Positions 2,084 to 44,364 of a stretch of 44,364 nucleotides of DNA are shown one piece after another (position 1 is the stretch's first letter; the number at the start of each line of letters is the position of its first letter). This stretch comes from a virus, in the IMG/VR virus record IMGVR_UViG_3300020154_000008, positions 1 through 44,364 of that record; one strand, written 5' to 3'. The notes under the pieces were generated by a model, which had not been told where the DNA came from, did not search any database, and was given only the letters and a program-made list of their open reading frames with translations. The translations under genes were made by a program, and so were the position numbers.

Positions 2084-4336
2084 TTACTTCAACGTCTTTT
2101 TTCCTCCATTCTTCACATACTTAATCGCTGCCTCGACAAATGCATCGATAGAAGTAAATCTCTCTGGATTTAATCCCTTAATAGCATTTATCACAGATTG
2201 AGAAATTCCTCCCCCTGTTTGGCTGGCGATTCCATCGACAATATTTTTCTGAATATCAGCAATCATTGCTGGAGTCACCTTAACGCCTGAAGCTTTCATG
2301 TCAGGATCATCAAGATAATCTTTCATGATTTTTGCTGTACTCTGAACATATTTCACAGCTTCACTTTGAACTTGCTGCTTCATTGATCCTGCAGCTGGAT
2401 AATAAGTTTTATCTTTTGGATTGAATGAGTAGCTTCGAACTTTTGGAGCTGGAGCTTCAAAAGTAGTAGGAGCTGGTGGAGTGATAACTTTATCTGCAGC
2501 AACTCGTCCTCCACCATCAGGAAGAGCAAGAGTGTCTGGACGGCTAGAACTTCGATTAATTTTCTGTGCTGCAGGCTCGAATGTTGTAGGAGTTTTTGGA
2601 GGGGGAGTAACAATAGGATTACGTGCTGATCCAAGAGGCTGAGGAGCATCAAGCTTCGGAATAGCTTGAACTCGAGCACCTCGTTCTGCCAAGATTTTTT
2701 CAGCTTCAGCAATAACACTATATCCATTTGGTTGCTTCTCAAGTCTCTGGATAAGAGCTCGAGTCATCATTGTTGAGATCTTTGGATCTGCCATAAGCTG
2801 AGCAAGCTTATCTCCTGTGATAGCTCCTGAAAGTGTTCCAAGTGGGCCTCCTTGAGATCCTACGAGTCCTCCCACAATTCGGGAAGTGAATCGAGTCATT
2901 TTACCTCCTCTCATCACAGTTCCAGCTCGCTTTTCAAGAATTCGAATTGCACTAGCAAAATCTCCAAGTCGAGAATTCATCATTCGAATATTTGCATCAT
3001 CCACAACCTCCTCGATCATTGTTTTTGCAACGTGACCCATTCGGAAATTCTGATCAGCCAACATATCAGCATCAGGATTACCAAACACTTTTTTAGATTT
3101 GAACCAGAGATCTTGTTTGATTTCATTAAATTCATCGATCTTCATAAGAGCTTTTCCATTTGATTCGAAGATCTTTCCTTGAGATCGATATGCTGCAACT
3201 TCGGCTCGAGCATGTTCGAGAGCTCGTTGTCGTGCAGTTCCTTTGAGTTGATTTGCTGATTCGAGAGCTCGGCGTTCGAATTCATTTAGATCGGCATATT
3301 TTCCAGAACTCTTAAGAACAGCTTTAAAGGCTGCATTTTCTGCAGCTGCTTTTGTTGAGAGCTCATCGATCGCTCGAGTAGGATCAAGCTTGCCTCCTTT
3401 ACTCTCCAAAACGATTCCCTCTTTAGCCAAGAATTTTGGAGTATTTCGAGCCCATTTCTCTTCGATCTGTGCCATTCGAGGAGTGAGATTGAGTGATTGT
3501 CGATAAGCATTCTCAAGCTTTTCCATCTGCTTTACAGGATTCACAATGATATTAAGAGTCTTTTTTGCTGCAGCTTTTGCTGGAACACTTACTACTTTTG
3601 AAGTTGTAGACACGATATCCACAGGAGCTCCTTTAACTTTAGTAAGCGTTTTATTGATTCCTGTAGCACTAAGAGCCACTTGTTCAGGGCTCTCTTGTGT
3701 CCACTTATACAGATCTTCCACAGCTTTACCCACAGTTTCAGCTTTCTCGTTTTTGAGGATATTTACTCCTTTATCATAAGCCTGCTTAGTGTCTTTAGTG
3801 TTTAAATCAACTCCTGTAAGCTTTTTTACGCCTGCAGAGAATGCTCCAAGTGTGAAGTTACCGAATCCAGCAAGAGGATCATAAATACCTTTTCCGATCT
3901 TTTTTCCAGTATCAACAAATCCCTCGGCGATGTATTTTGTAGCATTTCCAGCACCATGCTCTTTATACATTCCGATAGTCTGAGCAGGAGCATGATAAAG
4001 AAGATCTTCAAGGTTTCTTCCTGTGTTAGCTACGATATTCACAGCAGGGCGAACAAGACCTTTTGCAGCCATTTCGAGAGGCTGTTCATCTTTCCCAACT
4101 TTCCAGTTTGGAATAAAGTGATGATCTTGTTCTACAGGTTGACCTTGTTCATCCACTTCTTCTTGTTGTGCCATTGGTGGAGCAACTTCGGCATAGCCAG
4201 GGTCTACTTCACTTCCAAAATACTGAGATGCTTCATCATCAGAAATAAAGTCAGGAAGTTCGGAGACTGTAACATCAGCCTTTCCGCCCATCTCTAACTC
4301 CATCATCTCTTCATCTGTTAAAAAATCTTTTGGCAT
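2084..4336 (-). CDS. Large internal/ejection-type virion protein
   Basis: The protein has 750 residues. It has an acidic N-terminus, a central helical region rich in Ala/Lys (about 110-520), then a Pro/Thr linker holding two related copies of a TTFE-P-A-P-K type unit (PTTFEPAAQK and PTTFEAPAPK), and a helical C-terminus. No enzymatic motif was recognised. Its size, helical nature and place between two wall-degrading proteins match the ejection (internal core) proteins of short-tailed phages, which are expelled to form a conduit through the envelope. The start ATG at 4336 lies one base after the stop of the preceding gene, within TAATATG. Function is inferred from context. Confidence 0.7.
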   Translation of the reverse strand: MPKDFLTDEEMMELEMGGKADVTVSELPDFISDDEASQYFGSEVDPGYAEVAPPMAQQEEVDEQGQPVEQDHHFIPNWKVGKDEQPLEMAAKGLVRPAVNIVANTGRNLEDLLYHAPAQTIGMYKEHGAGNATKYIAEGFVDTGKKIGKGIYDPLAGFGNFTLGAFSAGVKKLTGVDLNTKDTKQAYDKGVNILKNEKAETVGKAVEDLYKWTQESPEQVALSATGINKTLTKVKGAPVDIVSTTSKVVSVPAKAAAKKTLNIIVNPVKQMEKLENAYRQSLNLTPRMAQIEEKWARNTPKFLAKEGIVLESKGGKLDPTRAIDELSTKAAAENAAFKAVLKSSGKYADLNEFERRALESANQLKGTARQRALEHARAEVAAYRSQGKIFESNGKALMKIDEFNEIKQDLWFKSKKVFGNPDADMLADQNFRMGHVAKTMIEEVVDDANIRMMNSRLGDFASAIRILEKRAGTVMRGGKMTRFTSRIVGGLVGSQGGPLGTLSGAITGDKLAQLMADPKISTMMTRALIQRLEKQPNGYSVIAEAEKILAERGARVQAIPKLDAPQPLGSARNPIVTPPPKTPTTFEPAAQKINRSSSRPDTLALPDGGGRVAADKVITPPAPTTFEAPAPKVRSYSFNPKDKTYYPAAGSMKQQVQSEAVKYVQSTAKIMKDYLDDPDMKASGVKVTPAMIADIQKNIVDGIASQTGGGISQSVINAIKGLNPERFTSIDAFVEAAIKYVKNGGKKTLK

Positions 4337-4337
4337 A

Positions 4338-5933
4338 TTATGCTTGTGAATTAAACGCCTTGGCGAATCTATTTATGTACTCTGGTACTGATGTTCCAGT
4401 TACATCTTTTGCATTGTTACCCTTGAAAGGTTTCCCACTGAACCATGCAGAGGCGACATCGAGCCCATCTCCGTATTGATTAATAAGATTTTTCATTTGA
4501 TGTTTTGCAATCTTTTCTTGAAGTGCTGGATTTTTTAGGAATTCTTGAACAGTGATCGATCGACCAAGAGCTGCTTTACTCCATGATGGAATATTCTTTC
4601 CCATGATCTGATATTTTCCATATGCGTTATCTCCTGCATACATACCACTTTTTACTGTAGGCCCGATGGCGTCATATCGTTTTGAGCTTTCGATTGTCCC
4701 TATCGCTTCAGCTACGGCATCAACATCATTCACAGTAACTGGGATCGATTTAGGTGTTGATGCCGAACTCACTTTTCTCCAACCTCCGTCTACCTTTTCA
4801 TATTCCACACCGTTCACTGTTTTCTTATCTGCTGCTGTTGCCTGATCGTAATTGATAAGATATGAACTTCCATCTTCTTCTCCTGTTTTCTTTTCGATCA
4901 ATCGTGCTGATTCATCATAAAGATTCTTGTATTGTTTTCGAATACCGTTATATTTCTCATTAATGATTGCACTGAATTCATTTCGAACAGAGTCAGGAAG
5001 TTTACCTCCATCTGGCTTGAAGAGAGCATTGAATTTTGCAAATTGTCCCACGAACCAGTTACCAGAGGCTTGAGCTGTAGCGTATTCTGATTCTCGAACT
5101 ACGGAAGTAGGATCGAGAGCTTTCATGAAATCGAAGATGGCAGCAAGATCTCCAGGGCCAGTCTTTCGTGAAAGAATGTTTTTTGTAGTAAGGTATTTAT
5201 TCTGAACTTCATTAAATTGTTTTGTAACAGGACTTGTATTGTATTCAGATCGAATTTTATCCACCTGAGCTTCAGTTTTGTAATCCCATGTCTTAGAAGT
5301 TTCTCCATAAGCTTGCTTCTTAGTTGTTCCATATGGAACACCAAGATCTCGAGCCTCAGCCACAGAGAGAAGCTCATCATCCGCATCTTCTTCATCCTTA
5401 AGATCTTTAAGAATCTGAAGCTTTCGAAGTTCTTCTGAAGAAGCATCTTCCTGGACTCCGATCTCTGCATCGATTGATTTAATTGCATCATCATATTCAG
5501 CACCTTTATTTCGCATTGCAGCAATAGCCCCATCTGGAGTGACTCCAGTGAGATCTGCAGGAGCGAGAAGTTGCTTTGTTCGAATATCATCCTTTCGGGC
5601 ATTCAACTGCTTAAGCTGTGGATTTCCTGTGACACTTCGAAGAAGTGTTTCACGAAAAACTTTATTAACGTCGAGATTGCCAACATCGCCGATTGTTGAT
5701 GAAGCAGGGGCTTCACCCATTCCTCCTCCAGCCTGTTCATCATTTCTTGATGGAAGTGATGTGCCTGCAGGCTCATCAGCAAAAGTGAGAGCTCGGCTAT
5801 TTGGCTCTCCTTTATATGCCAAATTACCAGCCTTAAGATCTGATAATATATCTCGTTCGATTACTGGAGCGAAAGTTCCACTTTCATCTCTCTTGTAAAA
5901 CGATCCATTTATTTTTATAAATTCTGATGGCAT
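4338..5933 (-). CDS. Ejection-type virion protein with C-terminal lysozyme-like domain
   Basis: The protein has 531 residues. The first ~400 are helical and polar. From about 402 to the end there is a lysozyme-like/transglycosylase domain: AIGTIESSKRYDAIGP with a likely catalytic Glu near 415, then AYGKYQIM, NIPSWSKAALGR, EFLKNPALQE and ASAWFSGKP, the motif series seen in phage virion-associated muramidase-like domains. It probably degrades peptidoglycan during infection. It is the second of two predicted glycan-cleaving virion proteins, the other being the SLT enzyme at 1184-1939. The gene overlaps no neighbour and is spaced 1 nt from the next. Confidence 0.8.
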   Translation of the reverse strand: MPSEFIKINGSFYKRDESGTFAPVIERDILSDLKAGNLAYKGEPNSRALTFADEPAGTSLPSRNDEQAGGGMGEAPASSTIGDVGNLDVNKVFRETLLRSVTGNPQLKQLNARKDDIRTKQLLAPADLTGVTPDGAIAAMRNKGAEYDDAIKSIDAEIGVQEDASSEELRKLQILKDLKDEEDADDELLSVAEARDLGVPYGTTKKQAYGETSKTWDYKTEAQVDKIRSEYNTSPVTKQFNEVQNKYLTTKNILSRKTGPGDLAAIFDFMKALDPTSVVRESEYATAQASGNWFVGQFAKFNALFKPDGGKLPDSVRNEFSAIINEKYNGIRKQYKNLYDESARLIEKKTGEEDGSSYLINYDQATAADKKTVNGVEYEKVDGGWRKVSSASTPKSIPVTVNDVDAVAEAIGTIESSKRYDAIGPTVKSGMYAGDNAYGKYQIMGKNIPSWSKAALGRSITVQEFLKNPALQEKIAKHQMKNLINQYGDGLDVASAWFSGKPFKGNNAKDVTGTSVPEYINRFAKAFNSQA

Positions 5934-5939
5934 ATAATT

Positions 5940-7370
5940 TTATGAATATGAACGGCTTCTAAGGTTTCTGTTATACGCCTCTTGTCGTCGTAAGTTTTCA
6001 TCTGATGCCAAAAGTCGTGCAAGAGTATCTGTCTTTTCTTTCTGTTCATATTCAAGATCTCCAGTGACTCCACCTCCAAAAGAAAGGCTTCGTCCACCCA
6101 ATTGAGGCAGGGCAGTACTCATGAGATTATTTGAACCCCCTACACGTTCCGCTTTAGTTACGAGATCTCGGCCAGATCGGAATGCGATATCTGCTTTTTG
6201 AGCGAGTGCATCATTTGTGTCCACAGTGAGATCGTCATTAAATGTCTTTCGATTTGAAGAAAATGCGAGTCCTCGTTCTGCCATATCTTCATTTCCTGTT
6301 TTTCGCTCTCGATTTGCCTGACGAGTAATCTGGCCAGAGACTCGAGTGAGATCTACTCCGAGATCAGTGAGATTTGTCTCGAGATCCTTTTTAAGAAAAT
6401 CGAGTTGCTGTTTATAAAATGGTGAAACAACTTTCTGAGCTTCATCAAGAAGTGATTTGTAATCTACAAGATCGAAAGATCCCATATCAAATCCTCCACC
6501 TCCATTTGATCCGCCCTCTCCACCTCCTGTCATTGCTGGATTGAATTGATATCCTGAAGCCACGAGAGCTTGTCCTGTGTTATATGCTGCAGATTGAATA
6601 GCGATGTAGGCTTTACTAATCGGGCCGAAATATCCAGGATTGCCTTGAGTATCGATCTTATTTGCATTTTGCCATGCAGTAACTGCAGCTTTTGTTTCGT
6701 TTCCGTAATTACCAGTTGCACCTGATGGAATCTGATATCCATTCTTAATAAGAAAATTCTGAAGATCCCGAACATCCTGGCCCTTCATTCCTGGAGTGAG
6801 ATTTCGTTCAATTTTTGGAACTTCAATAAATCGATTATTGTTCGCATTGTAATCGAAGCTCTGGCCAGCATCGACATTATTTTGTTGAACAGTTGAATTC
6901 ACCCCGAAAGCTCCCACAGTGGTTGTATTATTCTGTGTTGATTTCACTGAAATAGATCCATCAGCATTAAGTCGTGCTGGGCGATTTCCTCCAGCCATAA
7001 TATCCATCGGCTGAAAGAGTTGATTTCTATAATTATTGAGAGCGTTTTCATAAGCTACGAAATCGGCTGCTGTAGCTTTTGGATTTTGTGACGGATGAGG
7101 AATGCCTCGGCGAACTTGTTCGAAAGCTGCTTCAGGAGAAAGTGTTCCCACTTTCATTGCTTCTCGTACTCGAGAGATATCTGAAGAGCCTAAAACATCA
7201 GCTTTATATCCTGATGGCTGCTGATATGTTTGAGTGCTTTGCTGTGGGCCGATAGGAAGTGATCGATTTTGCTGTGCTGCCTGGAACTCCGCTTGAGATG
7301 GATAATAGCCAGTCGCTGGAGATCCGTAAGGCGTTTCTGGACTATAAGTTGCTGAATAAGTTACTCGCAT
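5940..7370 (-). CDS. Virion protein with peptidoglycan-binding domain and coiled coil
   Basis: The protein has 476 residues. The N-terminus (1-60) is rich in Tyr, Gln and Pro. Residues about 191-257 form a peptidoglycan-binding domain of the PF01471 type: LTPGMKGQDVRDLQNFL, then TKAAVTAWQ, then GYFGP. The GYFGP style is common in Parcubacteria cell-wall proteins. A glycine-rich linker (~285-297) leads into a long charged helix (KQQLDFLKKDLE). It lies in the ejection-protein block and could anchor the particle or ejected proteins to the host wall. The start ATG at 7370 has no Shine-Dalgarno. Confidence 0.75.
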   Translation of the reverse strand: MRVTYSATYSPETPYGSPATGYYPSQAEFQAAQQNRSLPIGPQQSTQTYQQPSGYKADVLGSSDISRVREAMKVGTLSPEAAFEQVRRGIPHPSQNPKATAADFVAYENALNNYRNQLFQPMDIMAGGNRPARLNADGSISVKSTQNNTTTVGAFGVNSTVQQNNVDAGQSFDYNANNNRFIEVPKIERNLTPGMKGQDVRDLQNFLIKNGYQIPSGATGNYGNETKAAVTAWQNANKIDTQGNPGYFGPISKAYIAIQSAAYNTGQALVASGYQFNPAMTGGGEGGSNGGGGFDMGSFDLVDYKSLLDEAQKVVSPFYKQQLDFLKKDLETNLTDLGVDLTRVSGQITRQANRERKTGNEDMAERGLAFSSNRKTFNDDLTVDTNDALAQKADIAFRSGRDLVTKAERVGGSNNLMSTALPQLGGRSLSFGGGVTGDLEYEQKEKTDTLARLLASDENLRRQEAYNRNLRSRSYS

Positions 7371-7606: not shown

Positions 7607-9073
7607 TTACAATGAGAGCTGAAATTGATAAATCGTTCCTGAAGATCCGTTGTTAGCCTGAGTATTTGGCACAGATGGAGTGGGATCAGAACCTCGAATT
7701 TGCTGTTGTCCTCCACCCATACCACCAGTACCAGCAGATGCAGTAATTGAGCCTCCGTTAGTAAGCTGATTGTACACAAGAATGATTACACCTCCGTTTC
7801 CACCAGCACCTCCTCCTCCGTTTCCTACCCAGAATGGGCCAGGGCCAACAGGATATCCTGAACTTGCTCCATTACCTCCGTCTCCACCATTACCTCCGTT
7901 TGCAGCAATAGATCCACTTGATCCAATGATTAGTTTACGAGCATAGATTGCAATGATGCCTCCGTTTCCACCACCACCACCTCCTCCTCCTCCATCAGCA
8001 GAAACTCCACCACCTGGAGGGCCACCTCCACCCCCTCCACCTGCAGTGCCTCCACCTGTATATTTAACACTCGATCCTGAAGAAGAAATATCGAGAAGTG
8101 TGGCAAGATGCCAGTTTGCAATAAGTTTACAATTTGCAGCTGTTGTCGTTCCACCAGCTCCACCTGCTCCTCCTGCTCCGTTACTTCCGTTTGTAGATGC
8201 TCCTCCTTGTTGACCAGCTACGCCTGCAGCAGATCCGATCGCATTTGTAACAGATGTTCCTGCCCCTCCTGGATTTTGCCCCCCACCGTTTCGGCCTCCT
8301 GCTCCTCCTGCTCCTGAAGCTGGAGCTCCTTTAAGATACCCATCAGCAAGTGAAGCTCCATTTCCTCCACCGTTATTCGGCCACATAGAACCGAAGCCGT
8401 TAGATCCATTACCACCATTTCGGGCGATCGATCCATTAACAGTAAGGGTGTTTTTTACGAAAATTCGATAGCCCCCTGGATTAAGAGTGACGCCAGAATT
8501 AACTGTTAAGTTATCGTAATATTTATCTGCTGTGAGCGTAGTGTTTGAAGATATTGTGGCATCACCGTCTGAACCGTCTCCGAAAGAAAAGATTCCCGAG
8601 TTTGTAATAACGTATTGAATCGTACTTCCTCCAATCTCTACATTTTCGAAGTGTGCAGCACCTGAAGCACTAATTCGTGTGGGGGCTGTAGAATAAGATC
8701 CATTTCCTGCTCCACTCCAGAAATTTCCATCAGTATCGATGTGAGCCGATGTCGCATCGTTTCCACCGATATGAATTTCATCCACAGTGACAGTGCCTCG
8801 AAAGACTCCATCGTTAAATTCAACAGATCCATTTGCTGAGATCTGCCATCCTTGAGTGCCTGATTTGAAATTGTATGATTCAAGATTTCCATCTCGAACA
8901 ACAATTCCACCTGGGAGAATTCCATCTTGAATATCTCCAGCATCCACTGTTCCGCCTCCGCCTGCATTATTACTATATTCAGACGAGTTTAATACAGTTC
9001 CACCCTGCATCCCATTTCGGGGATCGTTTATGCGATAGAGTTGTTTACTATAATTTGAATATACGTCGTCCAT
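7607..9073 (-). CDS. Glycine-rich tail fibre/adhesin
   Basis: The protein has 488 residues. Residues 1-215 are beta-rich, with fibre-like segments (FKSGTQGWQISANGS, GNDATSAHIDTDGNFW, LTVNSGVTLNPGG). From ~216 to ~450 it is extremely glycine-rich (GGAGGAGG, GGGGGGGPPGGG), interspersed with hydrophobic beta segments (IIAIYARKL, VIILVYNQL), ending in a short cap. Polyglycine-type repeats of this kind occur in receptor-binding tips of some phage adhesins. It is probably the receptor-binding tail fibre. The high local GC and the proline-rich opposite-strand frames are consequences of GGN codons. It sits directly after the head-tail adaptor gene. Confidence 0.75.
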   Translation of the reverse strand: MDDVYSNYSKQLYRINDPRNGMQGGTVLNSSEYSNNAGGGGTVDAGDIQDGILPGGIVVRDGNLESYNFKSGTQGWQISANGSVEFNDGVFRGTVTVDEIHIGGNDATSAHIDTDGNFWSGAGNGSYSTAPTRISASGAAHFENVEIGGSTIQYVITNSGIFSFGDGSDGDATISSNTTLTADKYYDNLTVNSGVTLNPGGYRIFVKNTLTVNGSIARNGGNGSNGFGSMWPNNGGGNGASLADGYLKGAPASGAGGAGGRNGGGQNPGGAGTSVTNAIGSAAGVAGQQGGASTNGSNGAGGAGGAGGTTTAANCKLIANWHLATLLDISSSGSSVKYTGGGTAGGGGGGGPPGGGVSADGGGGGGGGGNGGIIAIYARKLIIGSSGSIAANGGNGGDGGNGASSGYPVGPGPFWVGNGGGGAGGNGGVIILVYNQLTNGGSITASAGTGGMGGGQQQIRGSDPTPSVPNTQANNGSSGTIYQFQLSL

Positions 9074-9076
9074 TTT

Positions 9077-10474
9077 TTATTCTTGGCCTTGCAAGTGGCC
9101 GTTATCTGGTGAAAATCCTACGTCCTGCCCGATTCGCTGTCGCTTTTTCATTACTTCTTTTCTTCGAACATATTCGAGATAATCACTATTTTCTTCAGCC
9201 TTAATTGCTCCTCGTTTTTTCTTGTATTCGATTTTGAATTTAAGATATGAAACAAACATATCTACATCTGGCTCATCAAGAACATCAGCATCTGAATCGT
9301 ATGCTGGGAGTGTTCGATAGAGATCCATGAAAATATTATTTCCATCATACGCTTCTTCAAATGGAACATTAAAGAAGATAGTATCTTCAAAAATAGTGTA
9401 TGAAGTAGGAAGTCCGAAACTCACATTTTGCCAAACATTTGTACCCACAGCATGAGTGGCTGTAATAGATCCTGTTCCTGATGCTGGAATTCCTGAGAGA
9501 GTATTAGTTGAATTATTCTTCGCTGTATATGTGATTGTATTTGTTCCGATCGTAATTGATCCACTGTCCTCGAGATCTCGAGTATCAGTAAGAACGAGAG
9601 TTGTCTGTCCAACTGTAGGCTGAGTGGCTACTGTTGTTCGAGTGATCTTTTCATACCATTCATCCCATCGTCTTTTTGAAATATAAGGAATATTTTTTCC
9701 ATCAGATCCGATGCGAAGTCCGAGAATGTTTTGTGCTGAATCAGGATTTCTGAGTGTTGCTGGAACAGCTACGGAATACTGACCCACAGTAATATTTCCT
9801 ATATCTGTATTGAATGAAGTTCGGAAAGGCCATCGCTTTGATTCACTATCAAGCTCTCGTCGAGCTTCCCATAGAGATTCGTTCAAAAACTCGTCTGTAA
9901 GGGTCTTATCGATCGTTTCGCCCTTGTCGTCCAAGGCTCGCTTTTTGATCGAATAGACGGTGTTATAGGCGTAACCAGCCCCTGTTACCTCATCTGAATA
10001 GTCTGAATATGTCGTATCATTAGCATTTTTAAAGCGGATCTTGTATGCCTTAGTAATTGCATCTGAAACAGCTTCATAAAACGTTTCTAAAGCATCCACT
10101 CGAATAGATACAGTGGCGAGCACTGAATAAGATCCTCCCACCGATGTTGCTGAAGAGATCTCAACCTGATTATATGGAATGAATCGAACAACAGTCCCTC
10201 GGGCATGAGCGAATTTTGTAGTTCCAACAGTAGCTGTATTTGATGATATTGCACTCATCAAAACAATTTCAGTTTCTTCATGTCCTGGCTCTCCGATAAT
10301 GAGATATTGATTTGCTGAAAAATTCTGGCCAGAAAGGAGTATAAGCGACGTTACCGCTGCTGAATAATCCTGGGCGAGATATGTTTTTTCAAATCCCGAA
10401 AGATCAGGAAGTCGAGCCCAGAGCTGATTCCCGATATCGCCTCTTTTTATTCTAAGCTGTGGTAATAATTGCAT
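9077..10474 (-). CDS. Head-to-tail adaptor-like protein
   Basis: The protein has 465 residues. The N-terminal ~190 residues contain two beta domains, with YNTVYSIKKRAL at their end. A helical block follows (LTDEFLNESLWEARRELDSE), then SKRRWDEWYEKI, an inserted beta domain, and a C-terminal part PTSYTIFEDTIFFNVPFEE with FMDLYRTLP and VSYLKFKIEYKKKRG. This last arrangement is characteristic of phage adaptor proteins that join portal to tail in podoviruses. It is placed by motif style and by its position before fibre genes. The start ATG at 10474 is in GTTATATG without a Shine-Dalgarno. Confidence 0.65.
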   Translation of the reverse strand: MQLLPQLRIKRGDIGNQLWARLPDLSGFEKTYLAQDYSAAVTSLILLSGQNFSANQYLIIGEPGHEETEIVLMSAISSNTATVGTTKFAHARGTVVRFIPYNQVEISSATSVGGSYSVLATVSIRVDALETFYEAVSDAITKAYKIRFKNANDTTYSDYSDEVTGAGYAYNTVYSIKKRALDDKGETIDKTLTDEFLNESLWEARRELDSESKRWPFRTSFNTDIGNITVGQYSVAVPATLRNPDSAQNILGLRIGSDGKNIPYISKRRWDEWYEKITRTTVATQPTVGQTTLVLTDTRDLEDSGSITIGTNTITYTAKNNSTNTLSGIPASGTGSITATHAVGTNVWQNVSFGLPTSYTIFEDTIFFNVPFEEAYDGNNIFMDLYRTLPAYDSDADVLDEPDVDMFVSYLKFKIEYKKKRGAIKAEENSDYLEYVRRKEVMKKRQRIGQDVGFSPDNGHLQGQE

Positions 10475-10480
10475 ATAACT

Positions 10481-11518
10481 TTATGAATATAACTCTGCTA
10501 ATTTTGCCTTTGTAATCGGGCCAAGTGTTCCCACTGGATCGATTCCATATTTTGCCTGAAACTTCTTTAATGCCTCTTTTGTCACTGGCCCGATATTCTC
10601 AGTGAAAGAAACATTTGATGGAAAGAATCCCTCGTATCGAAGAATTCTCTGTGTTGAAATAACTGATCCATCGAACACAGGACGATCGCCTCCTCCCTCA
10701 TATTTGAAGTTCATAGGATAGGTGATAGCGAGAGATCGTTTTGAAAGCCATTCCTGATCCACGAGGCGACGTGAGATCCCTCCGAAATGTGCTGAGTCCT
10801 CGACAAGAAGAACCTTTCGGCCGTTATAGAGGAATGAATCAGTAAATGTTACGAAGTGACGAAGTGTAGATGGAGCATATCCATTAAGAGAACGATTGTA
10901 TATTTGTGGCTGTAATTGTCCCCATTCTGAGCTTGTGAAGAAAGTCATGTAATGTACAGCTTTCCCTGTCGTCTGAATAACTGAAGCGATAACGTCGATA
11001 TCTGCAGGAAGAACAATTTTCTTCCCCATTTTAAAGGCTTTACCGACTTCTTGGGCAGGAATAGAAATCTTCGCATTGTCTGCATCGGCATCTTCACTGA
11101 TGAAAACTCCAGTAAGAAGTTTAAGCGTAACACCATCGCCGATGATCTTATATAAGTCATCAACACTCATCCCAGCTCCAGGCTTATTGAATCGGCGTTG
11201 ATAAATATCTTCTTCTGAGAATTCGATCCAGACTCCATGGCGTAACCAGTAGTAAACTCCTACGAGCTTCTTCATTGAGAATGCTCCACACATAAAACTT
11301 CCGAACTGATTCAGCTCAGGAAAAACTCTCCATTTTGATTCAGGCTTTTCAGTCCAAATAGGCGTATTTGCTGAAGCAACGATTTCATCAAATTTGATAT
11401 CGTCCTCTCGAGTTCCAACAGGATCTTTTGTTAAGAGAGCACCTGTAAAATCCTCTGGAAGTTTTTCAGGGGCTTTTACTGCGAATCCTTTGAATATGTT
11501 TTTTAAAAATTCGAGCAT
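10481..11518 (-). CDS. Papain-like cysteine peptidase with C-terminal peptidoglycan-binding domain
   Basis: The protein has 345 residues. Residues ~65-270 look like a papain (C1) fold: Q71 and C77 in NQFGSFMCGAFS, H221 in RHFVTFTDS, and D241 in KVLLVEDSAH. This reproduces the Gln-Cys-His-Asn/Asp order, with Asp in the last place. Residues ~305-345 (GPVTKEALKKFQ, VGTLGPITKAKL) are a peptidoglycan-binding motif. The likely role is a wall endopeptidase, either the endolysin or a virion enzyme. The neighbouring single-span membrane protein would suit a lysis pair. There is no signal peptide. Papain-like folds are unusual among phage lysins, so activity on the wall is inference. Confidence 0.65.
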   Translation of the reverse strand: MLEFLKNIFKGFAVKAPEKLPEDFTGALLTKDPVGTREDDIKFDEIVASANTPIWTEKPESKWRVFPELNQFGSFMCGAFSMKKLVGVYYWLRHGVWIEFSEEDIYQRRFNKPGAGMSVDDLYKIIGDGVTLKLLTGVFISEDADADNAKISIPAQEVGKAFKMGKKIVLPADIDVIASVIQTTGKAVHYMTFFTSSEWGQLQPQIYNRSLNGYAPSTLRHFVTFTDSFLYNGRKVLLVEDSAHFGGISRRLVDQEWLSKRSLAITYPMNFKYEGGGDRPVFDGSVISTQRILRYEGFFPSNVSFTENIGPVTKEALKKFQAKYGIDPVGTLGPITKAKLAELYS

Positions 11519-11521
11519 ATA

Positions 11522-11887
11522 TTATTTACTACTATTTTTAATAATTTCGATGTCTTTTTGAATGAGTTTGATACTACTGAGAATCTCTGAATTTACGTTT
11601 TGCTGATTTGATCGATCTAAATCACCATTGTTTGCGATTGCTTCTGTAACTCCTACAAGTTTCTCTATTGCTGCAGCATTTGAATCAATGCGAGTATTTT
11701 GAATTTGATCTATGTTTTTACCATCATTGATCCCCGAGATAAGCCACAAGGCGACCCCGACGACTGCCATGATAAGCCAAGAATTTTTACTAAGTGTATT
11801 AGTCAATGAATTAAAACTATCATTGTCTTTTACTGGCTTCATCATTTCAGCCATCACTTTTAATTGTTCGAGATCTACCTTTGCCAT
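11522..11887 (-). CDS. Single-span membrane protein, holin/lysis candidate
   Basis: The protein has 121 residues with one strong transmembrane segment near residues 36-52 (WLIMAVVGVALWLISGI), a polar N-terminus and a long helical C-terminal part. It lies directly upstream of the papain-like wall enzyme. It is one of the few phage genes here with a Shine-Dalgarno-like AGGA just before the ATG. A promoter-like TTAACA-N18-TATACA lies about 30 nt upstream. It could be a holin or spanin-like partner; the fold alone does not decide. Confidence 0.6.
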   Translation of the reverse strand: MAKVDLEQLKVMAEMMKPVKDNDSFNSLTNTLSKNSWLIMAVVGVALWLISGINDGKNIDQIQNTRIDSNAAAIEKLVGVTEAIANNGDLDRSNQQNVNSEILSSIKLIQKDIEIIKNSSK

Positions 11888-11958
11888 TGTCCTAAAAAAA
11901 ATTATGTATAATTCGCTTCTTAATAAAATGTTAATGATGAGCTTGTATACTTAACTCA

Positions 11959-12165
11959 TTAGAACTTAGTTTTATTAATATGAGCTTGCAAGTGTTGTTT
12001 TATCTTTATCTTCTCTTCTTTTGTCAGGACTGAATCATCGTGTCTGCCACACTTATTACATGACTCGTGATTATATCCTCCTCCGTCACTATGAAATCCC
12101 CCACAGGGGCAGAAAGACGGAGCTTTCAACCACCTGCAAAATTTTATAAAAGGACATGTTTTCAT
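11959..12165 (-). CDS. Small cysteine/histidine-rich zinc-binding protein
   Basis: The protein has 68 residues with cysteines in CPFIKFC, FCPCGGFH and SCNKCGRHD, consistent with one or two zinc sites. The C-terminus is a charged helix. Its ATG overlaps the preceding gene's stop by four bases (ATGA), so it is translationally coupled to the short exported protein upstream. No family was recognised. Confidence 0.6.
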   Translation of the reverse strand: MKTCPFIKFCRWLKAPSFCPCGGFHSDGGGYNHESCNKCGRHDDSVLTKEEKIKIKQHLQAHINKTKF

Positions 12166-12479
12166 CGCATTTTTTTTCCCTTTATAAAATCTCGATTCGC
12201 CACATCCTCTAAATCTTTCACCTTATCCCAACTGAAAGGAAAAGATTTCGATTTTCCGTTTTTTAGAAAGATTGTGACAGTGCACGTTTCATAATCTGGC
12301 ACAACTTTCTGAACAACCTGATCATCGAGGCGGAATCGACGATCGATTGTTGTTGATGCAGATAGTTCACAATCTTGTTTAGGAGAAGTTGCCACAGGCT
12401 TTGAATCAGGAACAGCAACGAAAGCACCTCCGAGAGCTGCGATTCCTACTATTGTTCCTGCAACGATTTTCTTTTTCAT
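12162..12479 (-). CDS. Short exported protein with N-terminal signal/anchor
   Basis: The chosen start, ATG at 12479, gives 105 residues and puts a classic export signal at the very N-terminus: MKKK, then a hydrophobic stretch (IVAGTIVGIAALGGAFVAV). An earlier in-frame start 12 nt upstream would add a non-hydrophobic tail. Two cysteines (QDCEL, YETCT) could form a disulfide outside the cell. It is the third of three consecutive genes with export signals (see 12484-13275 and 13281-15887). Function unknown. Confidence 0.65.
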   Translation of the reverse strand: MKKKIVAGTIVGIAALGGAFVAVPDSKPVATSPKQDCELSASTTIDRRFRLDDQVVQKVVPDYETCTVTIFLKNGKSKSFPFSWDKVKDLEDVANRDFIKGKKMR

Positions 12480-12483
12480 ATAT

Positions 12484-13275
12484 TTAGTCAAAAAAGATTA
12501 AGTCCTCTACATAAGGAGAGGGTGTTACTCCACCGCCTCCTGATTCTTTAAATGTAGCTACTAATGTTTGAGATCGGAGAAATTCTGTTGAGGTGAATGT
12601 TGCTGTTTGAGCTCCTGTTGAAGTAATTAATTTATCTTCGATTGCTTGCCATGTATATCGATCAAAGCCTTTTTGTTCGAGGCCATTTGAATATCCTGAT
12701 CCAGCTGTATATCCCACTGTTACACCCTGATCTCCACCTGAACCAACACAACCGATTACAAGCTCTCCCGCCTGAGTGGTTGCAGCTGTTGCTCCTGAAG
12801 AGTGACTTTGAACATATCCTCCAGCAGTATTAGATGAAGTGTATACATCCAAGGGATTTGTAGTAACGAGGCCAGAATATTCTCTAACTTGAGTAATTGA
12901 ATCGGCAAATACTCCATCAGCCCAGCCAATATTAATCACTGTTGATCCTCCTGAAATGTTATAAGCCATATACATCCAAGTCTTTCGTTCTTCCGTTTTA
13001 TCCTGAATTAATGTCCATGTATTGCTTCGGCTATCTGTAATTGTATCTGGAACATCAGCCGATCCTGCAGTAATACAAGCCAAAAGAGTATTTCCTGTGG
13101 TTGTATTTGAAGTCATTGTCACTGTGTAGGAATTCACATATCCTCCACCGTTTTGAGATTTTGTTTGAACAAGTGCAGCTGCTCCATATACTGGATGAAC
13201 TGGAATATATGAAACTCCAACAACCAGGGCGAGGATTGCGACACTCGATATGATTTTTTTAATGAAGTTTTTCAT
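12484..13275 (-). CDS. Secreted beta-rich protein with signal peptide
   Basis: The start at ATG 13275 (263 residues) yields a Sec-type signal: MKNFIKK, a hydrophobic core (SVAILALVVGVSYI) and a likely cleavage near VYG-AAA around residue 32. The upstream in-frame ATG at 13296 would bury this signal. The AT-rich AAAATATATG context matches neighbouring starts. The mature part is beta-rich, Ser/Thr/Gly-rich, with segments such as TGNTLLACITAG and SNTWTLIQDK. It ends in a Gly/Pro linker (GGGGVTPSP). It lies next to a large signal-bearing fibre-like protein. It is probably displayed or secreted from the infected cell; whether it also enters virions is unknown. Confidence 0.7.
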   Translation of the reverse strand: MKNFIKKIISSVAILALVVGVSYIPVHPVYGAAALVQTKSQNGGGYVNSYTVTMTSNTTTGNTLLACITAGSADVPDTITDSRSNTWTLIQDKTEERKTWMYMAYNISGGSTVINIGWADGVFADSITQVREYSGLVTTNPLDVYTSSNTAGGYVQSHSSGATAATTQAGELVIGCVGSGGDQGVTVGYTAGSGYSNGLEQKGFDRYTWQAIEDKLITSTGAQTATFTSTEFLRSQTLVATFKESGGGGVTPSPYVEDLIFFD

Positions 13276-13280
13276 ATATT

Positions 13281-15887
13281 TTATTCTCGTGTCCAAGTAC
13301 CGAAGATACTAATGTTTACATAATTCACTGATCCTGAAGTTGCTCCGAATGTAACAGTGTTTAGTGCTGCAGCTGCTGAAGTGGCTGAAGAAATCGCTCC
13401 ATCATCTGAGGTTGAAGTGGTAAGACAAGTGATTGTTTCACCGAAGAGAGTGATTGCTTTTGAAGTACCTCCCTCGACGTTGCATCGGATCGCTGTAACA
13501 GTATATCCATCAAGTTCGATCGGAAGCTGTTTTGTTCCTGATGAGACGAATGCCGGTGAAGTTGAACCGAGAGCAAAACTCATAATTCGATTCACTTTTC
13601 GAGAAGCCACGAATGCTGTATTTCCTGAATCAGCTACAAGTAATTGATTATCTGTAGTATCAAGGGCAATTTCTCCTGCAGTATCAACCACAGGGGCTGT
13701 ACCATTAATTATTTCAAATGATGTTTTTCCTCCGAGATCGATTGATGTAGGAAGTGAGAGTGTGGGATTACCTGAAACTCCATCTCCATTTGTTACAGTG
13801 ATTTCATTTGCTGTTCCTGTAATAGTTCTCTGTGACCATGCATCGGTTGTAGTTCGAACAGCAAATCCTGTTGATCCAAGTCCTTCAAGAGCTGAAAGAT
13901 CATTCGCTAATGCGAGTGTGGGATTACCTGAAACTCCGTTTCCGTTAGTAACAGTGAGTCCTGCAGCTGGGCCTGTAAGTGTTCGGCCTGTAAATGTATC
14001 TGCAGCTGTTTGAACAAGAATTCCGTTAGTGTTATATGCAGCAAGAGATGTGAGTGTTGAATCGCCTGCTTGTTTTCCGTTAAAGGTTGACCAATCAGTT
14101 GTAGAAAGACATCCAACTACAGAGGCGGAGGCTGTATTACAATTAAGTGTATTTGTACTCCACGCCAATCCACTTCCTGCTGTTATCCGATTCGATGGTG
14201 TTGTGTAGAAAGTATTTAGATTCGTGATATCTGCAGAAAGGGGAATGGTATATCCTGATGTGAGACTGAGTGCAAGAGTTCCATCTGTTGTGATAGGACT
14301 TCCTGTAACAGTGAGCCCTGTAGGTGTTGTCATTGCCACACTTGTTACTGTTCCTGAGCTTCCTGATCCTCCGAGTCCGAGAGTAGATGTTGCCACCCAT
14401 TTTACAGCTGATCCTGTACTCTGAAGCACCATTCCATTTGTTCCTGCTGAAGAGAGAGAATCGAATAATCCACCAGTGAGAACCATATCTCCAGTTACCG
14501 AAAGAGTTTTCCAAGGTGAAGTTGTTGCAATTCCGAAGTTTCCATTCACATCGATCACAGCTCGTTCAGTGAGAGATTTTGATGAGTTAGCCACCTGAAA
14601 AGCTAATCGTGAAAGAAGTCCTCCCGATCCTTGAGATGATGAAATTCGAGCTGTTGAGAATGCACCTGTATCGGTATACCAAGAAATACCAGGAGCAGCA
14701 CCTGATGATGAGACGGAATTTCGAATACGGAGAGCGTCCTGAGTACCCGATGTTGAGCTGGCCACAATACTCATAAGGTATAGTGGGCTTGTTTGAGGTT
14801 GTACGAATTGAACGAAGTTATCAAAACTATTATCCGCTGCATTTCGAGCATTGAGCTGTAATACATTTCCCTGAACAGCAATTTCATATTTCCCAGCTGG
14901 ACTTGTTTGATCTGTTTCAACAAATTCTATATCTGGATTTGGTGAATCAATTCGAAGATCATAATCAGCCCCTTGTGGGCTATTTGAAATTGTTCTTAAT
15001 GCTCCATTTACAGAACTTGCATCCTGATTTACTACCTGGAGACGTGCTGTTGATTGTGATGTTGTTCCTACAGTAAGTTGATTATCTACTTGTAGAGCAT
15101 TTGAAATTGTTGATGTTGCTGTTGAAGATGTGGCAGTAAAATGTGATCCTACTATCTGGCCAGCCACAGAGAGTTTTGCATAAGGTGATGTCGTTCCAAT
15201 TCCGAAATTTCCACTTACTCCTGATATTTTTACACCTGCAGATCCGAGACTGAGATGAGCTTGTGTACTATCTTGTGCCCCTTGGAATTCAAGAGTATTA
15301 GCTGTATTGATATCAAACATCTTTATATCATCTCCAATTCTGAAAGCTTCTCCTGAAGATCCTCCTCCCTGGAAATAACTCGCTGAAGTGATCGGCCCTG
15401 CATCATATGAAATTGTTGACCCTCCCTTTGTCCAGTAATTAAGAAATGCTGGAAGTGTTGTTGATCCTGTAATGTATGATCCCACTCGAGCATCTGTATA
15501 AAACAATTTTGAACCCTCTACTATATTTGATGAACTAATATTAAGTGAAGATGTCGCTATTGATGTAAGAGCTGAAGCACTTGACCATCGAGCAAGATCT
15601 CCAGTTACTGGAGTTGTTGATGTTGAAATTGATCCGCCTCCACCGCCTCCTCCTGAAGAATCAGTTCCACAAGAGAAAACTCCCTGAGCATTCGTATCGA
15701 TAGTGTCACAGTTTGCGAGAGATGGAATTTGAAGTCCCCATGTATTGAGTACAGGAGCAACTTTATTACTTACCACTTTCCAGAAGTTTTGAGATACCTG
15801 AGCCTGAGTCCAAAAAGGGGCTAAGAAAATTCCAAGTCCGATGGCTAATGCTGCAATTAATCTTTTTGTGCTAAATTTAGTTTTCAT
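13281..15887 (-). CDS. Large secreted fibre-like repeat protein
   Basis: The protein has 868 residues. The N-terminus is a textbook signal peptide: MKTKFSTKR, the core [16 protein letters not shown], and TQAQ near residue 30. The body is Ser/Thr/Gly-rich beta repeat sequence. It carries [16 protein letters not shown] and [16 protein letters not shown] units, an [16 protein letters not shown] motif, and two near-identical tail-fibre repeats ([24 protein letters not shown]). The [13 protein letters not shown] style is characteristic of secreted proteins of Parcubacteria. The gene overlaps its upstream neighbour by 11 nt. It could be a surface adhesin added to the host, or a fibre taken from a host gene. 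The signal peptide is odd for a cytoplasmically assembled virion fibre. Confidence 0.8.
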
Positions 15888-16296
15888 ATATATATGTTAT
15901 TCCCTCGCCACTCACTGAAGCATCGATGTAAATCAGATTAAGGTTATTCACTGATAAAGTAATCGTTCCAGTAGGTAAAAGCTCGATGCCTCGGGTGGCT
16001 GAAACTGTTGAACTCCCTACATAGATACTGCCTGTATTTGCTGATTTTGCCTGGATGGTGATTTTCTTTGCTGGAACTGATGATGATGAAAGTTGTACTG
16101 ATGTTCCTGCAGTAGTAACTGTTTTATTTCCATCTCCGAATGATGAATTTCCTGATCCTCCGAAATTTGTAATCTGATCTCCATTCTCATCATAGACTGT
16201 GACAGGAACAGCAACCTGAACACCTTTCTTATCAAGCTCGAGTTTTCGATCATCATTTACCTCACTCCCGATTATTACTCGTTTGTTTTCTAGCAT
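15877..16296 (-). CDS. Small beta-rich structural protein
   Basis: The protein has 139 residues. After a charged N-terminus ([13 protein letters not shown]) there is a beta domain with [40 protein letters not shown] and [12 protein letters not shown]. This pattern recurs in small tailed-phage structural proteins, probably tail- or head-associated. Its stop overlaps the start of the fibre-like gene by 11 nt. The protein at 17410-17739 has a comparable beta layout. Confidence 0.6.
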
Positions 16297-17812: not shown

Positions 17813-18823
17813 TTAAGAGTTTGTATTCTTTGAACCAACCCATCCTCGTGCATCGTTGTGACCGATGTCGAACATCATAGTTGTCTTGTACTGGATTTCT
17901 CCTGTCTTAAACACTACATTTGGGCCTTCCAACTGGATCGGCTGTGACTCCTTGTACTGGAATCCGTATTCATCGTTCACCATTGATGAATCAAACATAA
18001 ACCAGTAGCTGGTATTTGTTTTGATCCATGGATTCTCGATTACTTCGTATTCTGGAGCTGCAGCTGCATCATTATTTGCAGTTGATGGCATTGATCGTGG
18101 GCCTCCTGACTTGATATTAGCCAAGATTTCCTTAGCTCGGAAAGCAACAGAGTGTCCCTTTCGAGTCATAAGTTTATCGAGGTTGATATCCATCAATTCT
18201 CCCTTTGGATCTTTGATCAATGAGGCTGTTCGGTGAGCTGCTTTGATAGCATCGTAATCGATGTCCATGTTCACAGTTGAACCGTCAGTAATTTCATTGT
18301 TCCAGTTTGCACCTCCATCTTCTCGAGTGTGAGCAGTCGTAATGAATGCAACACCATCTCCACCAGCATTTGATACAGAGTAGTTTCCACCTCCATCATC
18401 AGCTGTGTAAGAAGTTGCCCATGCATTGTCGAGGCGATCAGCACAGAGCTTCTCTCGCTTTCGTTCACATGATGAGATGAGAGCTTTTACAACTCGTTCC
18501 AAATCTCGCTTCTTAATTCCGAACTTCCACATCTTCTTTGTTACGGGAAGAAGTTTTCCGTACTCAACCTGAGTATAAGTTTTGTCGAATCCTTGAACTG
18601 GTACTTCTGAATTGATTACAGCATTTTCTACAATTCGATCAGCTGTTCCTAAGCCTGAAAGAGATGAGTCTTTACTGTAATAATCAGTAACACCTGAGAC
18701 AACATTGAAATATTTGTCATAGAATGACTTTTTTTCCAATGATGATTGCTTCAAGAAAATATCCTGAATGGCTACGTCTGTAAGATCTACAGCATCACCT
18801 AAGGTAAGTGCTCCTGCTGGCAT
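17813..18823 (-). CDS. Major capsid protein
   Basis: The protein has 336 residues. Motifs typical of tailed-phage coat proteins include NVVSGVTDYY near the N-terminus, GKLLPVTKKMWKFGI, a long helix ERVVKALISSCERKREKL, and a C-terminal NDEYGFQYKE with ARGWVGS. It lies directly after scaffold and decoration genes in the standard order and is followed by a strong hairpin. It would form the icosahedral shell by an HK97-type fold; the fold is inferred from size and context. The N-terminus MPAG is shared with the decoration protein. Confidence 0.8.
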   Translation of the reverse strand: MPAGALTLGDAVDLTDVAIQDIFLKQSSLEKKSFYDKYFNVVSGVTDYYSKDSSLSGLGTADRIVENAVINSEVPVQGFDKTYTQVEYGKLLPVTKKMWKFGIKKRDLERVVKALISSCERKREKLCADRLDNAWATSYTADDGGGNYSVSNAGGDGVAFITTAHTREDGGANWNNEITDGSTVNMDIDYDAIKAAHRTASLIKDPKGELMDINLDKLMTRKGHSVAFRAKEILANIKSGGPRSMPSTANNDAAAAPEYEVIENPWIKTNTSYWFMFDSSMVNDEYGFQYKESQPIQLEGPNVVFKTGEIQYKTTMMFDIGHNDARGWVGSKNTNS

Positions 18824-24141: not shown

Positions 24142-24426
24142 TTATTTTTCAATGACACACGATATGTCAGAGGCGTTAATAATCCAAAAAGTTTTTACGC
24201 CTTGACCGAGATCTAATTGAAAGTCATTTGGAATTACTTTCGGATATAAAATGACATCGCCTTTTTTATATTCATCTGAACCTGATTCAATTACTACACC
24301 TTGAGCAATTTGATCGGCTTCTTTCATCTGCTTTGGAATAAAGATTCCTGAAGCTGTTTTTTCCTTGTCCTCTCCCTGCACCTCTGAACTAAAAATAACT
24401 TGATTGTTTTTTGGTATAAGTTTCAT
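24142..24426 (-). CDS. GroES-like co-chaperonin (Cpn10 family)
   Basis: The protein has 94 residues, the normal length of GroES. The fold signature is clear: an N-terminal LIPKNNQVIF strand, the mobile loop with KTASGIFIP, GVVIESGSDEYKKGDVILY, and the C-terminal ASDISCVIEK. The mobile loop IVL-like tripeptide (IFI here) is the part that binds GroEL. It lies between large terminase and portal, so it probably supports folding of the capsid protein with host GroEL, as T4 gp31 does for gp23. It has a near-leaderless promoter candidate just upstream. Confidence 0.88.
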   Translation of the reverse strand: MKLIPKNNQVIFSSEVQGEDKEKTASGIFIPKQMKEADQIAQGVVIESGSDEYKKGDVILYPKVIPNDFQLDLGQGVKTFWIINASDISCVIEK

Positions 24427-43306: not shown

Positions 43307-43341
43307 TACTATTATAGTAGAACTCGTTCCGAAAGGAATCC

Positions 43342-43494
43342 ATGAAATACAGTTTCAGAGCATCGACGAGCCTTTGTCTTAAGGCACGATGCGAAGCCCC
43401 TCGTCAACGGAGGACGTATGACTCTGAGAAGCCACGTTCGCAACGTGCTGTCCGATCTAAATCGGTACGGCACAAGCCAGCGTCTCGGGCGTGA
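43342..43494 (+). CDS. Small Arg/Lys-rich ORF of the GC-rich island
   Basis: A 50-residue ORF starts MKYSFRASTSLCLKARCEAP and becomes very basic. A Shine-Dalgarno AAAGGA lies at good spacing, within a TTCC-GAAA-GGAA hairpin that could mask it. It overlaps the next ORF by 77 nt in another frame, so it may be a leader peptide or chance. Confidence 0.35.
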   Translation: MKYSFRASTSLCLKARCEAPRQRRTYDSEKPRSQRAVRSKSVRHKPASRA

Positions 43495-43699
43495 GCCCAC
43501 GCTAAGCGATGTCGACGCATTGTGCGACAACTACGAGCGACACGTACCCATCTACACGATCCACAGCTTCACTGTCGCTGAAGCGGATCAACACCAACTG
43601 CCACTCTTCCAGGAGGTCGTCCATGAACGACAGTGTCCAGAATGCGGCACTCTCCGAGGGCGTGACGGTCAAGTCCCTTCTTGTCCGCATAGCCACTGA
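43418..43699 (+). CDS. Hypothetical zinc-ribbon-ended protein of the island
   Basis: The protein has 93 residues and ends with ERQCPECGTLRGRDGQVPSC, then PHSH, a plausible metal-binding tail. GGAGG precedes the ATG at good spacing. G/C dominates third codon positions, as in a GC-rich genome. No family was recognised. It overlaps the next ORF by 77 nt. Confidence 0.55.
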   Translation: MTLRSHVRNVLSDLNRYGTSQRLGREPTLSDVDALCDNYERHVPIYTIHSFTVAEADQHQLPLFQEVVHERQCPECGTLRGRDGQVPSCPHSH

Positions 43700-43856
43700 A
43701 CAGGGCTTCACCGATGCGGAAAGCGTCGGCACAAACTGGTGGAGGCGGCATCGGTCAAACGCCTCCATCTTCCTGCGACAGTGCCCCCTCGTCCGAAACT
43801 ACTGCGAGCAGCTGATCGACCACAATCAGCGTCTCCCACTCTCCATCGCTTCTTAA
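43623..43856 (+). CDS. Hypothetical protein of the island
   Basis: The ATG at 43623, preceded by AGGAGGT, gives 77 residues (MNDSVQNAALSEGVTVK...), rich in Arg and Trp, with WWRRHRSN in the middle. The stop TAA is followed by AAGGAGGTGATC, a near-complete match to the 16S anti-Shine-Dalgarno complement, but without a start codon after it, as if the next gene had been cut off. Confidence 0.5.
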   Translation: MNDSVQNAALSEGVTVKSLLVRIATEQGFTDAESVGTNWWRRHRSNASIFLRQCPLVRNYCEQLIDHNQRLPLSIAS

Positions 43857-43873
43857 GGAGGTGATCAAAATCT

Positions 43874-43909
43874 CATCAGCGGAGCTGATGCACTGGGAAT
43901 GGATTCCCA
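43874..43909. other. Two tandem short hairpins at the island's right end
   Basis: CATCAGC-GGA-GCTGATG (43874-43890) and TGGGAAT-GG-ATTCCCA (43894-43909) are perfect inverted repeats. They precede the late terminator in plus orientation. They could mark the junction of the acquired segment or end the plus transcript. Confidence 0.45.
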
Positions 43910-43911
43910 AC

Positions 43912-43950
43912 AAAAAACAGGCTGATCAGAACCATTCTGACCAGCCTGTT
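43912..43950 (-). terminator. Rho-independent terminator of the late operon
   Basis: In the minus transcript a 16-bp stem (arms 43950-43935 and 43931-43916, with one G-U pair) is followed by six T. It lies just after the stop of the hub-like gene. The same sequence read on plus lacks a good T run, so its direction is late-operon. Confidence 0.9.
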
Positions 43951-43952
43951 AT

Positions 43953-44364
43953 TTATTCTATAATTCCCTCGTTTTTATATTCTAGTATTTCGAATCCTTG
44001 AAATGTGAACGGTGTTCCTTTTGAAGATCCTGAGAGATTCATTTTAAATCGTTTCCCTTTCATATCTCTTATATTATTGAACATCGTCTCGGGCTCTTTG
44101 AGTGATCCAAGAGCCTTTATTTCTGAGATATTGTCTTTATCTTTTCTGAAGCCCACTTTTCCGCCTGCAGCATTTTCATGAACTCCTGCAATTTTATTGA
44201 TTACTTTTGTTTCACTTCGGAGGCCGAGAATATTAGTCCATTGAGTTTCGAGCTGGTAATGAATCTCAATTCCGTTATCTGAAAGTCCTGAATTGAATGT
44301 GTGAACCTTTCCATCAGAGTCTCCAACAACCTGAGCAAGAGCAGAGCCTGTATCATATTGAGCA
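43953..44364 (-). CDS. Virion hub-like protein (C-terminal part, joined through the ends)
   Basis: This stretch is open to the right edge. It joins bases 1-1144 of the left end once the 136-bp overlap is merged: the C-terminal 91 codons run from 44227 to the stop at 43953. It is Lys/Asn/Ser-rich at the end (GKRFKMNLSGSSKG, LEYKNEGIIE). The overlap carries one amino-acid difference, Thr here for Ala at the left end (from T/C at 44237/10). Function as described for the N-terminal part. Confidence 0.7.
   Translation of the reverse strand, partial: AQYDTGSALAQVVGDSDGKVHTFNSGLSDNGIEIHYQLETQWTNILGLRSETKVINKIAGVHENAAGGKVGFRKDKDNISEIKALGSLKEPETMFNNIRDMKGKRFKMNLSGSSKGTPFTFQGFEILEYKNEGIIE
44228..44363. 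repeat. Terminal redundancy, right copy
   Basis: Same as 1-136 with one mismatch (T at 44237 against C at 10). It marks the closure point of a circular map. Confidence 0.93.

Follow-up and report, generated by a model that had tools for sequence, protein, structure and literature searches.

A late cassette of signal-bearing, tail-type proteins in a phage presumed to infect Patescibacteria: candidates for Sec-exported adhesins

Why would a tailed phage place an export signal on a tail fibre? The usual expectation is that such fibres are both synthesised and put together in the cytoplasm. The question is raised by a phage record of 44,364 b (IMG/VR record IMGVR_UViG_3300020154_000008; this whole stretch is called the window below), whose host is presumed to be a member of the Patescibacteria. 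On its minus strand lie three adjacent, tightly packed late genes (genes 1 to 3) that encode proteins of 868, 263, and 105 amino acids (aa) after start correction. The initial annotation had credited all three products with Sec-type N-termini and had called the largest one fibre-like. Both statements stand: the open reading frames (ORFs) are where they were placed, the signals sit at sound starts, syntenic sister phages are alike, and the C-terminal half of the 868-aa protein matches tail fibres (PHROG 697). The signal-bearing trio is a real and recurrent feature that belongs with phage-encoded exported surface proteins, here built from tail parts. The best explanation, which falls just short of an even chance, is that the trio forms a late cassette of tail-type adhesion proteins that would be exported by Sec from the infected Patescibacteria cell and would act at or just outside its surface. 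The signals at correct starts, the domains, and the recurrence are all read from sequence; export is what they point to.

The first issue is whether the signals are part of the proteins at all. The fibre gene (gene 1) starts at ATG 15887, inside the end of the upstream 139-aa gene. The ORF list begins genes 2 and 3 at TTG 13296 and TTG 12491, but ATG 13275 and ATG 12479 are the preferable starts; both lie only a few bases beyond the stop of the gene before. The trio starts have ATATATGAAAA as a common context, and nearby genes are without Shine-Dalgarno sites. Starts downstream of the signals, which the initial annotation had said would speak against its idea, were sought by inspecting the alternative starts, and no convincing one was found in any of the three genes. 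The sole alternative in the fibre is GTG38, without a Shine-Dalgarno site. In gene 2, GTG47 sits behind GGAGG but would remove the first beta-strand of the domain. The same two codons dispose of a dual-start idea, in which an internal start would yield a signal-less virion form.

All three N-termini are rich in K/R and then run into a hydrophobic core. When the features of a Sec signal are considered (positive n-region, hydrophobic core, small residues at -3 and -1), genes 1 and 2 pass, with good cleavage sites (TQA/Q and VYG/A), whereas the cleavage site of gene 3 is weak and its signal might be an uncleaved anchor. Scoring was by a crude, home-made hydropathy/charge rule, under which equal hydrophobicity appears in just 1-2% of residue shuffles of each trio N-terminus. 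Among shuffled window genes, 2.3% trigger the rule, and so do four more real genes of the window, at 11522, 17195, and 37359 (small or internal-transmembrane (TM) proteins) and at 18890 (doubtful).

On the sequences compared, the sister phages are stronger evidence for the signals than the shuffle test. A capsid-profile scan gave 100 related matches, and 80 loci were kept. Three portal relatives (56-61% identity) have late genes syntenic with those of the window. In L082 and L084, contigs that reach the fibre, the syntenic fibres start with a signal (MKNKIINIVTGTVISLFLVLPSIGYSQ; MKKYLLFALTIFLSCALVASAQ), and L093 provides a third syntenic signal-bearing fibre (NANAQATSNFWK). A similar segment comes right after the fibre signal in the window, in L084 (TTSNFWKVLVSNSVGRVSPSLSSW), and in L093 (ATSNFWKLLGTVLQPVLNTW). 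The window and L082, L083, L084, L093, L097 (three), L111/L122 (four), L154, and L188 all encode signal-bearing or TM-anchored proteins downstream of the capsid gene, and the fibre of L188 bears a signal as well. When 41 capsid rows were compared, 8 had signal-bearing or anchored proteins there and the other 33 had none. The signal label clusters on the capsid tree, where it takes three changes to explain, of which at least two are forced; none of 500 shuffles came as low. In some of the signal-less sisters the corresponding slots are taken by fibre- or lectin-like genes (e.g., Laminin_G_3 in L095). The recurring element is a row of two to four proteins with signals. As a set of three homologous genes the trio is not kept, and its co-occurrence, which the initial annotation had proposed to check in related phages, was not borne out.

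What kind of protein is the fibre? In its C-terminal half (about residues 470-725) it matches proteins annotated as tail fibres or as structural proteins of phages, among them PHROG 697 structural proteins (1.8e-14) and a Bradyrhizobium phage tail fiber (47% over 107 aa). It has repeats in common with these, with phage ppBdUSDA122-1 being the Bradyrhizobium example, and with cyanophage YadA-domain structural proteins. What sets it apart from them is its signal peptide together with an N-terminal region of Patescibacteria type. Only six genomes have matches to residues 40-260, in giant exported proteins; five are labelled as Patescibacteria lineages, and the sixth is a metagenome-assembled genome. 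Against 380 genomes the N-terminal profile gave one weak match, an exported protein encoded on a chromosome next to a groEL-like gene. Of 240 Patescibacteria genomes, 35 have a repeat module of the fibre, for the most part within very long ORFs. Judged by these matches, the fibre is a chimera, with a C-terminal half like phage tail fibres and an N-terminal part like Patescibacteria exported proteins.

Gene 2 is likewise tied to both worlds. With a 19-row alignment, AlphaFold2 models its mature domain as a beta-sandwich (predicted local distance difference test score, pLDDT, 79.7; predicted TM-score, pTM, 0.78); the alignment was needed, as the single sequence gave a pLDDT of only 35.5. When the model was compared with viral models (BFVD) by Foldseek, the hits were phage proteins with E values as low as 4.7e-14, and many of them bear the name minor tail protein. 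On the modelled fold, the mature part is a phage tail-type beta-sandwich. Minor tail proteins of mycobacterio- and gordoniaphages (Tweety, Hawkeye, DroogsArmy) share the fold at E ~1e-7 and TM-scores of ~0.55-0.6, with 10-20% identity; the related viral-contig proteins that were checked are without a signal, the BFVD entries being unchecked. The PDB fold search had no significant match, and ligand-gated channel domains, the best there (E 1.2e-3, Z 5.6), were taken as chance. By sequence, a single-sequence search found no close homologue in viral contigs or annotated phages, and phage homologues surfaced only once host copies had been built into a profile. By BLAST, gene 2 matches phage proteins without a signal in L206 (2e-8) and L207 (6e-8). 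About 20 other phage contigs encode the domain, with a signal in none of the 18 copies scored. Two further proteins (365 aa in L091 and 220 aa in L105) align by profile without significant BLAST matches and were counted only as possible homologues. Cytoplasmic synthesis without a signal, as in the related phage copies, thus does not describe the window copy. The initial annotation had regarded signal-less homologues in virions as damaging to its case. This applies by half, because signal-less homologues do exist, some fold matches being minor tail proteins, but the window copies carry the signal.

The same domain, headed by a signal, begins giant chromosomal exported proteins of ~1,000-1,400 aa in 3 of 287 Patescibacteria genomes, next to genes resembling ligA, tatD, and polA. 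More broadly, giant Patescibacteria surface proteins (L085-L090, L201-L204) share with the trio a signal plus gene 2 domain, GIGTTSP repeats, and another motif. They are chromosomal ORFs of ~1,000-8,800 aa with extra domains, whereas the phage copies are shorter and lie in a late gene run. Two giants of Patescibacteria type (L088:6935-12808, L090:3362-12595) start with a cytoplasmic helix-turn-helix-like segment (SAREAADLSGYTPDYIARLCHDGEV...), followed by a TM segment and then thousands of residues of fibre-like repeats. Near one chromosomal giant with the gene 2 domain are prepilin-peptidase-like and pseudopilin-like genes (L201:332-4333). For gene 3, no family was detected by Pfam, PHROG, and other searches; homologue candidates had only E > 0.005 and were discarded. 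PADLOC had no model match for the trio or its neighbours, systems outside its list not being covered.

One clue to where these proteins fold comes from their cysteines. Cysteine makes up 0.9% of signal-bearing proteins vs 0.5% of signal-less sister fibre/lectin ORFs (p=0.007), and its number is even in 12 of 14 signal-bearing vs 4 of 12 signal-less proteins (p=0.014), in a post hoc comparison of small, related sets. The window trio could form the pairs 60/73, 583/593, and 802/821 in the fibre, then 67/176 and 37/66 in the other two. The pattern fits disulphide formation outside the cytoplasm.

The mechanism that we favour would run as follows. The predicted Sec signals would export the trio proteins from the infected cell. 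Once outside, the proteins would fold with paired cysteines and be displayed on the cell surface or shed; any that stay might be held by non-covalent binding or tethered by an uncut signal. Late in infection their receptor-binding-type domains would occupy or mask surface sites, and masking would keep released progeny from re-adsorbing to the dying cell, to debris, or to infected neighbours. This masking role is the favoured one and also the least certain step. Coating of the infected cell had been suggested in the initial annotation as well, and the two purposes that it named, superinfection block and attachment of an episymbiotic host to its partner, are conjectural. The near-overlapping arrangement of the trio between structural and lysis genes speaks for the proposal, as does the signal-less candidate virion adhesin that remains at 7607-9073. 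A further point in favour is that the pattern of adjacent exported late proteins is repeated in L091 and L067, phage contigs in which no core homology to the window was detected.

Several observations do not fit so well. The signal calls rest on a home-made rule. No lipobox (first 45 residues), LPXTG, or C-terminal anchor is visible in any of the three proteins, which leaves surface retention unexplained unless the signal is uncut. The genes are expressed late with structural and lysis genes, unlike most exclusion genes. They are fibre-type genes in virion-fibre positions, and no relative is known to be a non-virion protein. Nor are signal-bearing fibres confined to Patescibacteria phages. Of 67 unrelated phage contigs that match the fibre and whose N-terminus is complete, four have a signal-like start (L006, L024, L046, L067; ~6%), and the distant capsid relatives L165-L167 encode a signal-bearing fibre-type protein of 607-616 aa straight after the capsid gene (L165:10967-12817). 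Therefore, the role of the trio need not be tied to Patescibacteria. In L046, a phage contig of Bacteroidetes-like appearance, a signal-bearing 844-aa fibre is followed by two small signal/TM proteins within the structural module (8897-12254). It is conceivable, if on the unlikely side, that several Patescibacteria phage lineages independently rerouted fibre/lectin proteins via Sec, with virion-type adhesins displayed on or assembled outside the cell.

What if the trio proteins belong to the virion after all? They might leave the cell by way of their signals and form disulphides as they fold outside; after lysis, virions would collect them by means of a socket protein that has no signal, for which the 139-aa neighbour is a candidate. 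In a milder version the signal is never cut and does no more than act as a hydrophobic tether. The trio does occupy slots where sisters keep signal-less fibre/lectin genes, its domains are of tail type, and a small signal-less protein precedes the signal-bearing fibre in the window, L082, L084, L093, L097, and L111. However, the small upstream ORFs have no BLAST link to the anchor ends of sister fibres, and the related idea of a fibre anchor split off as a separate small protein (L097, L111) is suggestive by eye without BLAST support. The glycine-rich protein at 7607-9073 could itself be the virion adhesin. Moreover, the literature searched, with subscription papers mostly outside that search, holds neither a precedent for a tailed phage assembling fibres after Sec export nor a description of tailed phages whose tail fibres bear signals. 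Virion adhesins assembled in this way thus seem unlikely, although they are the rival that survives best.

A more doubtful possibility is that the trio consists of captured host-type surface adhesins, which would alter how the epibiont sticks to its partner or to other cells and so aid phage spread. Giant signal-bearing adhesins of Patescibacteria (Absconditicoccaceae) have been proposed to bind the partner (PMC13059738). The giant exported proteins in 3 of 287 genomes, the repeat module in 35 of 240, and a fibre N-terminal motif found only in Patescibacteria-type genomes speak for capture. The initial annotation had raised uptake of host surface proteins and proposed a search for close homologues in Patescibacteria. 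Modules common to Patescibacteria surface proteins are indeed there, and the gene 2 domain occurs with a signal in some genomes, but identity to host copies is only about 30%, which argues against recent capture. In addition, the C-terminal half of the fibre and the gene 2 domain are ordinary phage-tail material, widespread in phages and signal-less elsewhere. The capsid profile found no match in 380 Patescibacteria genomes, against a resident prophage of the window lineage.

Could the trio assist lysis instead? As accessory lysis or envelope proteins like XepA of PBSX, its members would be exported late and act on the envelope before lysis. In favour of this, the trio has tail genes on one side and a TM protein plus endolysin on the other. 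XepA is a beta-sandwich exported in phage development, from a lysis-cassette position, and is reported absent from particles (PMC6834076). XepA (6i56) even appears in the structure list (Z 4.9, root-mean-square deviation 3.0, 93 aligned), but Z 4.9 lies in the background range stated by the tool. XepA also differs in being a pentamer and in being counted among proteins secreted without a signal peptide (PMC1266369). A large fibre would be odd as a lysis protein, and we consider this account very improbable. Least credible of all is an artefact, with true starts downstream of the signals or hydrophobic N-termini that do not work as signals: GTG47 behind GGAGG and the home-made scoring would allow it, but the starts a few bases past the previous stop, their common context, neighbours without Shine-Dalgarno sites, the first strand that GTG47 would cut, and the signals that sisters keep at the same place all speak against it.

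Llp and Cor are small lipoproteins that block the receptor by a lipoprotein mechanism. T5 Llp and Cor are presented as exported phage proteins that block superinfection (PMC9586334). Like the trio, they are phage-encoded and sent to the cell surface, and receptor block is the proposed common outcome. Unlike them, the trio is without a lipobox, late, and adhesin-like.

The other features of the window are listed in Table 1. The record is probably near complete, because several sister contigs measure 44-46 kb. Late genes on the minus strand encode an SLT transglycosylase, internal and tail proteins, lysis proteins, capsid, portal, a GroES-like protein, and terminase; early genes on the plus strand encode a VapE/NrS-1-type primase-helicase, a PIF1-type helicase, and a HerA-like ATPase. 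The tight gene run goes on past the trio through a Cys-rich 68-aa gene to the TM protein and the endolysin. Modules directed at peptidoglycan are present in large late proteins (an SLT domain in 1184-1939, PG_binding_1 in 5940-7370), which suggests wall-degrading ejection proteins. At the end, 43309-44364 has only short plus-strand ORFs of odd composition (e.g., 43509-43856) and may be a non-coding or terminal region. Directly after the capsid gene, signal-bearing sisters have small TM-anchored Thr/Ser-rich proteins, where other sisters have short signal-less proteins of structural type. In sister L111, GroEL-like and GroES-like proteins adjoin between terminase and portal (2910-4774); the window has only the GroES-like one (24142-24426).

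Table 1. Features of the window and of sister contigs (positions with an L prefix refer to the contig named).
Feature	Position	Strand	Basis or remark
Gene 1, 868-aa fibre-like protein with N-terminal signal peptide	13281..15887	-	C-terminal half resembles phage tail fibres, PHROG 697
Fibre signal peptide, residues 1-29, predicted cleavage TQA/Q	15801..15887	-	Sequence, shuffle test, syntenic fibres of L082, L084, L093
Gene 2, 263 aa, signal peptide and one tail-type beta-sandwich domain	12484..13275	-	Start correction, fold, homologues
Gene 2 signal peptide, residues 1-31	13183..13275	-	Sequence, shuffle test; absent from related phage proteins scored
Gene 3, 105 aa, N-terminal signal or anchor, two cysteines	12162..12479	-	No family match
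139-aa signal-less small protein, upstream neighbour of fibre	15877..16296	-	Kept directly before signal-bearing fibre in L082, L084, L093
68-aa cysteine-rich protein, start overlapping gene 3 stop	11959..12165	-	ORF list, sequence
121-aa single-TM protein, holin-like candidate	11522..11887	-	Hydrophobic segment; no family match
345-aa candidate endolysin, PG_binding_1 domain	10481..11518	-	Pfam PF01471 5e-7; PHROG endolysin
465-aa conserved tail-region protein, flanks cassette in sister phages	9077..10474	-	25 matching ORFs in related loci
488-aa glycine-rich signal-less protein, alternative candidate virion receptor-binding protein	7607..9073	-	Sequence; PHROG 13336; homologue in L097
Likely major capsid protein, marker for collecting sister phages	17813..18823	-	26% to annotated major capsid protein
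TM-anchored Thr/Ser-rich proteins	L082:8852-9451, L084:7040-7558, L093:1838-2666, L111:10743-12221, L188:11984-13379		Position after capsid gene

What the locus offers is a conserved export signal on proteins of fibre-slot and minor-tail type. Within a single capsid lineage it was gained or lost about three times, and surface proteins of the presumed hosts have it too. Such signals suggest either that receptor-binding domains are displayed while infection proceeds or that fibres are assembled outside the cell. Judged by the literature searched, each of these, if true, would be a novelty among tailed phages and would open a direct view of the interplay between phages and epibiotic bacteria, on which knowledge is scant. 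A practical consequence is that the annotation 'tail fibre' need not mean a virion protein. If adhesins are in fact rerouted through Sec, tailed phages would have a means of controlling adsorption that has not been reported before.

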